From contig JAFTQC010000044.1 in assembly GCA_017462965.1 (NCBI GenBank), forward strand, positions 1-39,647: a stretch of DNA of 39,647 nt, written 5' to 3'. The notes under the pieces were generated by a model. It was given only the letters and a program-made list of their open reading frames with translations. It was not told where the DNA came from and did no database searches. The position numbers and the translations under genes were made by a program. Positions 20,575-32,977 of the stretch are shown here, piece by piece. The DNA is from Clostridia bacterium. GTDB lineage: Bacteria > Bacillota > Clostridia > TANB77 > UBA1234. How positions within the stretch are numbered: the stretch's first letter is position 1; the number at the start of each line of letters is the position of its first letter.

Positions 20575-20700
20575 ATGTCGAGGGCAAAAAAGAATTTCAA
20601 AAAAAAGAACGTTCGCCGGCGAGCCCTCGACAAGCTGCCGGTTTTCAATAGGAGCAAAGATGTTAGAATCAATAGTAGAGGATTTAAGAGTAAACCTTGA
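20575..20700 (+). CDS. Possible basic leader peptide (41 aa), overlapping structured leader RNA
   Basis: ATG 20575 lies 5 nt after the -10 box and would be read from a leaderless transcript. The product has about 15 Arg/Lys in 41 residues (KKNFKKKNVRRRALDKLPVF) and ends at TGA 20698, inside the next gene. The same DNA is unusually GC-rich and contains inverted repeats, so the open frame may be a by-product of RNA structure. Low confidence. Confidence 0.3.
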   Translation: MSRAKKNFKKKNVRRRALDKLPVFNRSKDVRINSRGFKSKP

Positions 20701-30816: not shown

Positions 30817-30910
30817 TCTTTATGACCTTATCGGAATGATAACAGTAGTAATAATAATGTTAATTATGGTTAAATGCTTTGATGGAAAGGAAGAAAACAA
30901 AGATGAGTAA
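30800..30910 (+). CDS. Small single-pass membrane protein (36 aa), GTG start
   Basis: A CGGAGG site (30785-30790) lies 9 nt before GTG 30800. The 36-residue product has one hydrophobic segment (LIGMITVVIIMLIMVKC, about residues 9-25) and a charged C-terminus. It overlaps the previous gene and the next start (30903). It is too short for a sure call, but the strong ribosome-binding site argues that it is real. Confidence 0.5.
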   Translation: MIIESNLYDLIGMITVVIIMLIMVKCFDGKEENKDE

Positions 30911-31349
30911 ATACAATTTTGAACAAAAAAGAAACGATTATATGAGCCCTCCTGAATTGGTTAAAATGGCTCTTCAAAAATTAAACAAAGAATTCTTTGA
31001 TTGTGATGTTTGTTGTTCGGAGGAAAATATACCGGCTCTACATTATTACAAAGATGGTCAAATAAATGGTTTAAGTGAATATTGGTATAAAGTTAATTGG
31101 TGTAATCCTCCTTTTGATACTTGTGCAAAATGGATAAAAAAGGCTTATGAAGAGCAGCAAATAGGGAAAACAACAGTCATGCTCATTCCTGTAAGGACAG
31201 AAACTAAATATTGGCATGAATATATCCTATTTAATCCAAAAGTTGAAATACAATGGCTAAGAAAAGGCTATTCTTTCATAAATCCTGATGATAAAAAACC
31301 TATGGGAGTTTTCAAAAATGCTCTTGCATTGGTTTATTTTAATGCTTGA
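30903..31349 (+). CDS. Phage N6-adenine DNA methyltransferase (Dam-like)
   Basis: The product is 148 residues from ATG 30903. It has the minimal phage Dam layout: YMSPPELV near the N-terminus (about 13-20), the FFDCDVCCS segment, motif IV NPPF (68-71) in WCNPPFD, and a C-terminal half with IPVRTETKYWHEY. This family (phage N-6-adenine methyltransferase) modifies adenine and is short. It is the second DNA methylase in the window, but early instead of late. Confidence 0.85.
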   Translation: MSKYNFEQKRNDYMSPPELVKMALQKLNKEFFDCDVCCSEENIPALHYYKDGQINGLSEYWYKVNWCNPPFDTCAKWIKKAYEEQQIGKTTVMLIPVRTETKYWHEYILFNPKVEIQWLRKGYSFINPDDKKPMGVFKNALALVYFNA

Positions 31350-31398: not shown

Positions 31399-31848
31399 AT
31401 GATGTTAATTGTTTTAGATTCTAACCCTGTTAATGCAGCAAATAAAGTGCCTGACAAATTAAAGTTTAAGCAGCTTTTAGAACTTGCTCAAATGATTTGT
31501 TCTTGTGGATATTGCGATATTTATAAAGCAATTCCACAAGGCAAAAAAATTCAAGAATGGATTAAGAAAAATCCTGCATGGGTTAAAACCTACGGAGCTG
31601 TTTTGTATTATTGGTGTTTAGAATATATCAAAATGAAAGAAAAAACAATGGCAGATTTATTCGCTATTTTAACAAGTATTCCTGAAGCTGCAGATTTAAA
31701 CGGCAAAATTGAAACTGCAATATTCAGGTATAATAAAAATTATAAATCAATATTTCCTAGCGATGCAGAAATTACAGTTGGAAATGCGATAGAAGAGTAT
31801 AAAAAATATTTGGAGTGGAAACAAAATGCTAATTTACAAAGCAACTAA
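31399..31848 (+). CDS. Pyrimidine dimer DNA glycosylase-like protein
   Basis: This 149-residue protein resembles a phage family related to pyrimidine dimer glycosylases: LIVLDSNPVNAANKVPDKLKFKQ near the N-terminus with LLELAQMIC after it, and a second half with WVKTYGAVLYYW. Members act in repair, cutting at damaged bases. An adjacent ATG (31402) is possible as start. GAGGTGG precedes it. The C-terminal 23 nt overlap the GIY-YIG gene. Moderate confidence because the catalytic residues could not be confirmed. Confidence 0.5.
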   Translation: MMLIVLDSNPVNAANKVPDKLKFKQLLELAQMICSCGYCDIYKAIPQGKKIQEWIKKNPAWVKTYGAVLYYWCLEYIKMKEKTMADLFAILTSIPEAADLNGKIETAIFRYNKNYKSIFPSDAEITVGNAIEEYKKYLEWKQNANLQSN

Positions 31849-32116
31849 TTTAATTACTAATGAATGTTATATCGGACAAACAACAAATACTTTGCATAAT
31901 CGAAGAGTGGACCATGAATATGAAGCATTTAAAAGGAAAAGAAATGACAAATTTCATTCAGCATTGAGGGAATTTGGCTGCAAAAATTTCAAATGGGAAG
32001 AAATCGCTTCAAGCAATAATCACACAAATTTAGCAAAAAAGGAAAGAGAAATGATTATAAAACATAATTCAATAGAATATGGATATAATACACAAGTTAG
32101 ACATGACAAAAAATAA
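31826..32116 (+). CDS. GIY-YIG endonuclease
   Basis: This 96-residue stand-alone GIY-YIG nuclease has LIYKATN (residues 2-8) for the first motif strand, YIGQT (15-19), an Arg pair at 26-27 and a later conserved Glu in a helix (about 74-76). It lacks the DNA-binding extension of group I intron homing enzymes, but its small size fits phage homing or repair types. The stop codon lies just inside the 5' arm of a large RNA structure in the following gap. Confidence 0.85.
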   Translation: MLIYKATNLITNECYIGQTTNTLHNRRVDHEYEAFKRKRNDKFHSALREFGCKNFKWEEIASSNNHTNLAKKEREMIIKHNSIEYGYNTQVRHDKK

Positions 32117-32219
32117 ACTCCCTTTTGTATTACGGTGGTCATCAAGAGAATATACTACAAACCAAAATTTAATCCTAAAATCCAAAGAGAACGACCACCC
32201 TCTTTGGTAGGGAGTTTAT
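32113..32219 (+). ncRNA. Structured RNA with closing stem and H-type pseudoknot, hides next ribosome-binding site
   Basis: Three perfect pairings can be seen. Outer stem: ATAAACTCCC (32113-32122) with GGGAGTTTAT (32210-32219), 10 bp. Inner A: GGTGGTC (32134-32140) with GACCACC (32193-32199), 7 bp. Inner B: CCAAAGAG (32182-32189) with CTCTTTGG (32200-32207), 8 bp. The order A-B-A'-B' is an H-type pseudoknot, with A' and B' adjacent (0 nt between), so the two stems can stack. The outer stem takes up GGGAG, the ribosome-binding site of the gene at 32220, and its 5' arm contains the stop codon of the GIY-YIG gene. It may be a cis-acting regulator or a riboswitch; no known class was matched. Confidence 0.75.
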
Positions 32220-32465
32220 ATGCTAATTATCTCGCCTGAAATATTGTATAATATAAGAAAAAAGGAACTTGAAGAAACAATGCAAAAAATCTATCATAAA
32301 TTACAAAGATGGACACCATCTGCTATTGATTGTTATGAAAGAAATTGTATGTGTAAAGATTGTCCTATGAAAAAATTTATTACATCTCAAAAATGCCAAA
32401 TGAAATCAAGTGTTATTGAATTAATAAGATTATATGGTATTCCAAATAAAACGGCTCAATTTTGA
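32220..32465 (+). CDS. Small Cys-rich protein of unknown function (81 aa)
   Basis: The product is 81 residues from ATG 32220, directly after the pseudoknot RNA that contains its ribosome-binding site. The C-terminal part contains a cysteine pattern, CYERNCMCKDCP and then SQKCQMKSSVIELIRL, likely a zinc site followed by a helix. I recall similar small proteins with 'WTPSAIDCY' from genomes of uncultured gut bacteria and their phages, but the function is unknown. It is the last rightward gene; its TGA lies in the terminator hairpin. Confidence 0.75.
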   Translation: MLIISPEILYNIRKKELEETMQKIYHKLQRWTPSAIDCYERNCMCKDCPMKKFITSQKCQMKSSVIELIRLYGIPNKTAQF

Positions 32466-32471
32466 GCCGTT
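32450..32471 (-). terminator. Terminator between the converging operons
   Basis: AACGGCTCAA (32450-32459) and TTGAGCCGTT (32462-32471) make a 10-bp stem with only a 2-nt loop (so 9 bp in practice). On the minus strand it is followed by TTTTATTT, a good terminator tail for the leftward lysis operon. On the plus strand the tail is weaker. The stop codon of the last rightward gene is inside it. Confidence 0.75.
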
Positions 32472-32491: not shown

Positions 32492-32977
32492 TTAATTGTT
32501 TAAATACCATTTTACCTTATTTCTGATAAAATTGCCAATTTCATCAGCTTCTAAATAGGAATAAGGTGGTAAAAATGTTATGTCCGGCTTTCCGTAACTT
32601 GATGTTTTTGGGTGTGATTTCCCAAATTCATAATGAGTTAAAACTGTTTCAGGAGTTATTTTTATATCATATTTTTTGCAAAGTTCAGAAATTAATTTAA
32701 ATGCTGCTTCACATTGAATTTTAGTTAAAGGATAGATTCCAATATCAAACCGGTTATTATAACGGAACATACCACAAAGAGCAACACCAATTGAGCCTGT
32801 ATTCCCTCCTCCGATGTGCTGTGCATATTTACCATCATAGCAATTTTCATTATCTTCAGGTTTGAAAATTCCTTCATGCTTTTTTCCTGTTGCATCTATT
32901 AAATAATGATAACATTCTCTTTCATGTTCGTTTGGTTTCCAAATTCCACCGGTCCAATGAATAATAATTCTTTTCAT
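32492..32977 (-). CDS. N-acetylmuramoyl-L-alanine amidase (endolysin)
   Basis: This 161-residue, single-domain type-2 amidase has the first zinc His in IIIHWTG (H7), a conserved HIGGGNTGSIGVALCG segment (H54, residues 54-69), the second His in LTHYEFG (H115) and a GKPDI motif (129-133) near the third ligand. It cleaves the amide bond between the peptide stem and glycan of peptidoglycan. There is no signal peptide, so it needs the holin. It is the last gene of the lysis cassette. A globular enzyme without cell-wall-binding domain is typical of Gram-negative hosts. Confidence 0.92.
   Translation of the reverse strand: MKRIIIHWTGGIWKPNEHERECYHYLIDATGKKHEGIFKPEDNENCYDGKYAQHIGGGNTGSIGVALCGMFRYNNRFDIGIYPLTKIQCEAAFKLISELCKKYDIKITPETVLTHYEFGKSHPKTSSYGKPDITFLPPYSYLEADEIGNFIRNKVKWYLNN

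Follow-up and report, generated by a model that had tools for sequence, protein, structure and literature searches.

Why should a gap between two phage genes hold three perfect helices, one of which joins the stop codon of the upstream gene to the start site of the downstream gene? This question was raised by contig JAFTQC010000044.1, a sequence of 39,647 bases that carries phage genes and was analysed at its full length (the window). The gap (32113-32219, 107 bases) lies between a gene for a GIY-YIG homing endonuclease and a gene for a small cysteine-rich (Cys-rich) protein. The analysis of its sequence led to the proposal, to which we give an even chance, that the gap would act in cis as an mRNA structure coupling the translation of the Cys-rich gene to that of the preceding gene.

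Architecture of the gap and predicted occlusion of the start site

The three helices follow one another in the order P1-P2-P3-P2'-P3'-P1', which is the order of an H-type pseudoknot (P2 and P3) enclosed by a closing stem (P1). The original prediction had given lengths of 10, 7 and 8 base pairs (bp) for them. All three were found at the predicted place and the lengths of the inner two were right, but the outer stem turned out to comprise 11 bp (Table 1). The 5' arm of P1 starts one base 5' of the UAA stop codon of the GIY-YIG gene (32114-32116), and the last base of its 3' arm directly precedes the ATG at 32220. As had been proposed, the outer stem thus joins the ribosome-binding site (RBS) of the Cys-rich gene to the stop region of the GIY-YIG gene. 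UAA and ATG are separated by 103 nucleotides (nt). The pseudoknot starts 17 nt past the UAA and ends one base before the 3' arm of P1, and its loops are 41, 3 and 0 nt long. The predicted interlocking of the two inner stems, with the second following directly on the first, and the A-rich linker were likewise recovered. Arguing from A-form helices, it would be geometrically possible for P2 to stack on P3, because the 3-nt loop need only cross the deep groove of the 7-bp P2 and the 41-nt linker is ample. In ordinary H-type pseudoknots short loops cross the deep groove of such helices.

Table 1. Positions in the window of the parts of the element and of the genes around it.
Feature	Positions	Strand	Remarks
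P1, 5' arm ATAAACTCCCT	32113..32123	+	perfect 11-bp complement of 32209-32219; includes the UAA of the upstream gene (32114-32116)
P2, 5' strand GGTGGTC	32134..32140	+	perfect 7-bp complement of 32193-32199
A-rich linker, 41 nt	32141..32181	+	includes 32167, the only base at which the other known copy is different
P3, 5' strand CCAAAGAG	32182..32189	+	perfect 8-bp complement of 32200-32207
P2, 3' strand GACCACC	32193..32199	+	within the loop of hairpin P3
P3, 3' strand CTCTTTGG	32200..32207	+	directly abuts the 3' strand of P2
P1, 3' arm AGGGAGTTTAT	32209..32219	+	Shine-Dalgarno GGGAG and spacer of gene 32220
Gene for phrog_624-like DNA-binding protein	31399..31848	+	lies immediately 5' of the element in L012/L001
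Gene for GIY-YIG homing endonuclease, 96 aa	31826..32116	+	upstream neighbour of the element; missing from the near-identical phage L012
Gene for Cys-rich protein, 81 aa	32220..32465	+	RWT..AIxCY..C.C..C...KCQMK family, without a named function

The rarity of the arrangement was judged against 1000 random windows that were generated by a first-order Markov model, with length and composition unchanged, and scanned on both strands for the same arrangement. The summed stacking energy of P1, P2 and P3 (-48.8 kcal/mol) was reached by none of them, the best value being -43.4. P2 and P3 alone (-29.2) were matched by 97 of the 1000 windows, and therefore the pseudoknot by itself is unremarkable, while the complete set of helices is rare. 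When positions 32100-32240 were folded with ViennaRNA and no pseudoknot was allowed, an energy of -26 kcal/mol was obtained (z = -1.9), and the centroid structure contained P1 and P3. The element is a real, non-random and lineage-specific arrangement.

The calculated accessibility of the start site was low. Opening the region from -14 to +3 of gene 32220 was predicted to cost 15.1 kcal/mol, the highest value of the 60 window genes compared (median 4.1). In a separate calculation, which has its own limits, the opening cost fell from 10.6 to about 6.2 kcal/mol once the bases through the upstream stop codon were occupied, which is what a ribosome terminating there would bring about. By sequence and energy calculation, the downstream RBS is thus predicted to be occluded by a structure that involves the end of the upstream gene.

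The arrangement scan also returned a second candidate H-type pseudoknot at 20578-20641 (+), its second-best match on the plus strand (-43.4). The site belongs to the leader of gene 20660, the first one directed rightward. This candidate combines pairing of GTCGAGGGC with GCCCTCGAC, a GCCGG pairing and an A-rich loop, and it ends about 10 nt before the Shine-Dalgarno sequence. Gene 20660 has only one clear distant homologue, which is of no use for testing this pseudoknot.

Relatives of the element and its gene neighbourhood

In the collections searched, the sole other copy was found in the phage IMGVR_UViG_3300028480_000029 (L001, L012), which is about 98% identical to the window across most of the shared sequence. 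The element itself differs at one base, the linker position 32167. The GIY-YIG gene is missing from L012 with almost exact borders (31826-32109 in the window), which is a clean presence/absence difference between phages of about 98% identity. In L001/L012 the phrog_624-like gene continues directly into the element and ends at the same UAA inside P1.

A syntenic and more distant phage (L033/L034) has a GIY-YIG protein of 84%, an endolysin of 75% and a Cys-rich protein of 46% identity. Both the GIY-YIG and the Cys-rich gene are kept in it, the element is absent, and the start of the Cys-rich gene overlaps the stop of the GIY-YIG gene by 8 nt. Because this diverged locus has both protein genes without the element, the element and the Cys-rich gene do not form a conserved pair. 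The distance of the Cys-rich gene from the upstream open reading frame (ORF) was -8 in L033, -4 in L067, +9 in L073, +18 in L070 and +53 in L071, and it was +103 in the window and in L001. Members of the family are thus usually near or overlapping the upstream gene, L071 being looser. The sequences compared indicate that the element is limited to one phage lineage and that the Cys-rich gene family in general is without it.

Searches for further relatives were negative. At gathering scores the window held no Rfam family, and up to an E value of 10 only chance-level matches were obtained. No diverged copy was found by protein searches with the Cys-rich, phrog_624-like and endolysin proteins, by matching exact or gapped patterns to viral contigs, by BLAST comparison of the DNA with 191 genomes, plasmids and phages, or by a covariance model applied to 86 sources and to 385 genomes of the putative host order. 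A stable conserved regulatory RNA is not supported by the diverged syntenic locus or by these searches.

The best outside match of the covariance model (L162, 38 bits) was an unrelated GGGGACGG repeat palindrome with a 26-bp hairpin. Palindromes of the GGGGACGG(A/T)CC repeat, which resemble repetitive extragenic palindromic sequences, occur in two genomes of the putative host order (L162 1501-1608 and L041 2317-2400), and one in L041 lies just 5' of a start codon. Twelve elements in G017 with the ends GGTGGTC...GACCACC were also rejected as copies and represent a separate dispersed repeat. There are about 12 of these dispersed 69-bp elements (L286, L288); they resemble miniature inverted-repeat transposable elements (MITEs) and have inner hairpins and flanking inverted repeats.

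According to our own reading of the ORFs, the minus strand of the window encodes terminase-, portal- and tail-type proteins and the plus strand replication-type proteins. The Cys-rich gene is the final gene of the long rightward run. It is followed by the convergent endolysin gene (32492-32977), and between the two lies a perfect terminator-like hairpin (AACGGCTC..GAGCCGTT, 32450-32471). Since most relatives of the endolysin come from Candidatus Gastranaerophilales assemblies, the phage host probably belongs to the order Gastranaerophilales, which are gut bacteria. A gene for a Dam-type methyltransferase is intact in the window (30879-31349) and present as three short ORFs in the sister phage (L001 1852-2300), owing either to frameshifts or to sequencing errors. 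The Cys-rich family (L067, L070, L071, L072, L073, L033) has an invariant RWT, four Cys and the motif C.MK. The window member had no Pfam match, and the scanned members had no NCBIfam match and no clear PHROG match.

Proposed translational coupling and competing explanations

The proposed coupling builds on what the sequence shows: three complementary pairs that are rare in combination, a start site predicted to be occluded, a stop codon that falls within P1, and a UAA that is common to two different upstream genes. P1 pairs the entire Shine-Dalgarno region of gene 32220 with bases at the upstream stop, and this would keep the downstream gene off as long as the upstream gene is not translated. 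A ribosome terminating at the UAA would cover the 5' arm of P1 and free the GGGAG. The footprint of a terminating ribosome reaches to about position 32128. The pseudoknot, just outside such a ribosome, could stay folded and keep the 85 nt between the arms of P1 compact and apart from P1. In its folded state it might favour a clean re-closing of P1 or the recruitment of the freed start site. Folding in the cell, opening by ribosomes and the role of the pseudoknot are what we infer beyond these observations.

Gene overlaps like those seen in the Cys-rich family commonly accompany translational coupling, and most genes of this family lie at distances that suit it. Beyond about 20-40 nt, very little plain reinitiation is left (PMC10666635). 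The 103-nt gap should therefore break reinitiation, and another route is needed, such as RNA unfolding, for which f1 VII/IX, MS2 coat-lysis and, at +52 nt, Escherichia coli rpmI-rplT are examples (PMC12548453). That two different upstream genes end at one UAA fits a stop codon that is part of the element.

Several points weigh against coupling. The two copies are nearly identical and differ by one linker substitution, and therefore there is no covariation to count. About 6 kcal/mol of opening cost remains after P1 has been opened, and the pseudoknot-free folding is just modestly better than that of shuffled sequences. The common UAA may be fortuitous and reflect only the border at which the endonuclease gene was lost or gained.

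It is tempting to speculate further, with a quite low probability, that the element is a portable RNA module of Gastranaerophilales phages, comprising its own stop codon, the pseudoknot and the RBS of the next gene. Such a module would couple any preceding gene to the following one as a transplantable termination-sensing switch, and it might have spread with homing endonucleases.

The occluded RBS could also serve the timing of expression, as for T4 gene e and I-TevI, and this we regard as unlikely. On long early transcripts the Cys-rich gene would then be silenced by P1, and transcripts from a promoter within the gap that is used later would lack the 5' arm of P1 and be translated. A stem that sequesters the RBS is exactly the arrangement of T4 and frequent around homing endonucleases (PMC2988022, PMC3014915), and the last place of the Cys-rich gene in the rightward run would suit such a device. 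However, a consensus scan revealed no sigma-70-like site in 32124-32208, which is a weak argument as the consensus may not fit phage-specific late promoters, and in T4 the sequestered gene is usually an endonuclease gene or a late gene.

The absence of the element from the syntenic L033, its insertion-like look and its perfect inverted ends would also be expected of a MITE-like DNA element whose terminal inverted repeats measure 11 bp, and the RNA structure would then be a by-product. This is quite unlikely in view of the single full copy in its own genome, with no second one in relatives, viral contigs, plasmids or phage records. In addition, no clear target duplication past TA or an A-run was present, and the inner helices P2 and P3 are unexpected for a MITE.

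A translational operator in the style of T4 gene 32 or S15 would require a phage-encoded protein that binds the pseudoknot and keeps P1 closed, a part that the Cys-rich protein might play itself. Pseudoknots beside start sites are used in this way in T4 gene 32 and E. coli rpsO (PMC3014915), and the gene product is small, Cys-rich and possibly metal-binding. This option is nevertheless very unlikely: homologues of the Cys-rich gene are without such an upstream structure, the protein matched no RNA-binding family, and its AlphaFold model is of low confidence (mean predicted local distance difference test score 67.7).

Chance pairing in a fast-drifting intergenic gap, with P1 alone or nothing forming, might explain that P2 and P3 are matched in about 10% of the random windows and that the diverged relative is devoid of any gap. 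It is highly improbable, as none of the 1000 windows matched the combined arrangement and the ends of P1 coincide with the stop codon and with the final base before the ATG.

A riboswitch for a small molecule, which the A-rich linker would bind, is barely probable. The closing stem, the pseudoknot, the linker and the RBS within a helix resemble translational riboswitches in general. Riboswitches are normally widespread and conserved in sequence, yet the relaxed Rfam threshold gave no match, and the 385 host-order genomes, the 86 sources searched with the model and the viral contigs held no relative. Of the ligand-, protein- or ribosome-controlled switch that had been predicted, ribosome control is thus the best surviving option, while control by a ligand or a protein is not supported. 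The view that the layout is not that of a hepatitis delta virus (HDV), twister or pistol ribozyme is supported in that no Rfam ribozyme or riboswitch matched.

Three further ideas were discarded. The HDV fold requires both P3 strands to be nested within P2, which is not the case here. Read-through or a concealed coding segment would find a frame open for 40 codons past the UAA, but such a length alone is weak evidence for one of six frames, and the peptide has no convincing relative. For a bypass of the T4 gene 60 type, the last codon before the UAA is AAA and there is no in-frame AAA landing codon near 32220.

Comparison with known systems and implications

The element shares with the RNA-unfolding systems (PMC12548453) an inhibitory structure at the downstream RBS that would be opened by a ribosome on the upstream gene. 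It differs in that it bridges 103 nt, its stem reaches from the stop codon to beside the start codon, a pseudoknot lies inside, and the function is predicted. In the repYZ genes of the IncI-alpha plasmid ColIb-P9 and its relatives, a pseudoknot-dependent translational coupling was reportedly described by Asano and Mizobuchi in 1998. An upstream hairpin loop is said to pair there with a strand close to repZ, in competition with an antisense RNA. In both cases the upstream ORF stops inside the inhibitory structure and a pseudoknot is located near the downstream Shine-Dalgarno sequence; the complementarity of P2 lies about 10 nt before it. In contrast to repYZ, an upstream single strand pairs here with the loop of the RBS-adjacent hairpin, and no antisense RNA is known.

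The RBS-sequestering stems of the T4 group (genes e, soc, I-TevI and segB, and Aeh1 mobE) also hide an RBS on a polycistronic phage transcript near a GIY-YIG homing endonuclease gene (PMC2988022, PMC3014915). Here, it is the gene following the endonuclease gene whose RBS is hidden, no internal promoter was recognised, and a pseudoknot is present. The leader of T4 gene 32 has an H-type pseudoknot 5' of a phage start site as well; gp32 binds it and coats the unstructured RBS region, and the description includes no stem that closes over the RBS (PMC3014915). In the present element the loops are arranged differently (41, 3 and 0 nt) and a closing stem would cover the RBS.

Taken together, the element is most likely a new design of an RBS-sequestering, translation-coupled mRNA structure, and it is not a proven new RNA class. 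Its importance is limited by its occurrence in a single phage lineage, in a host group of whose phages' RNA control almost nothing is known. If the proposal is true, it would be a clear natural design in which a stem connects a stop codon with the following start site over about 100 folded nt. The phage would thereby keep two genes coupled after an insertion had pushed them apart, and the element would offer a simple and testable model for long-distance translational coupling.
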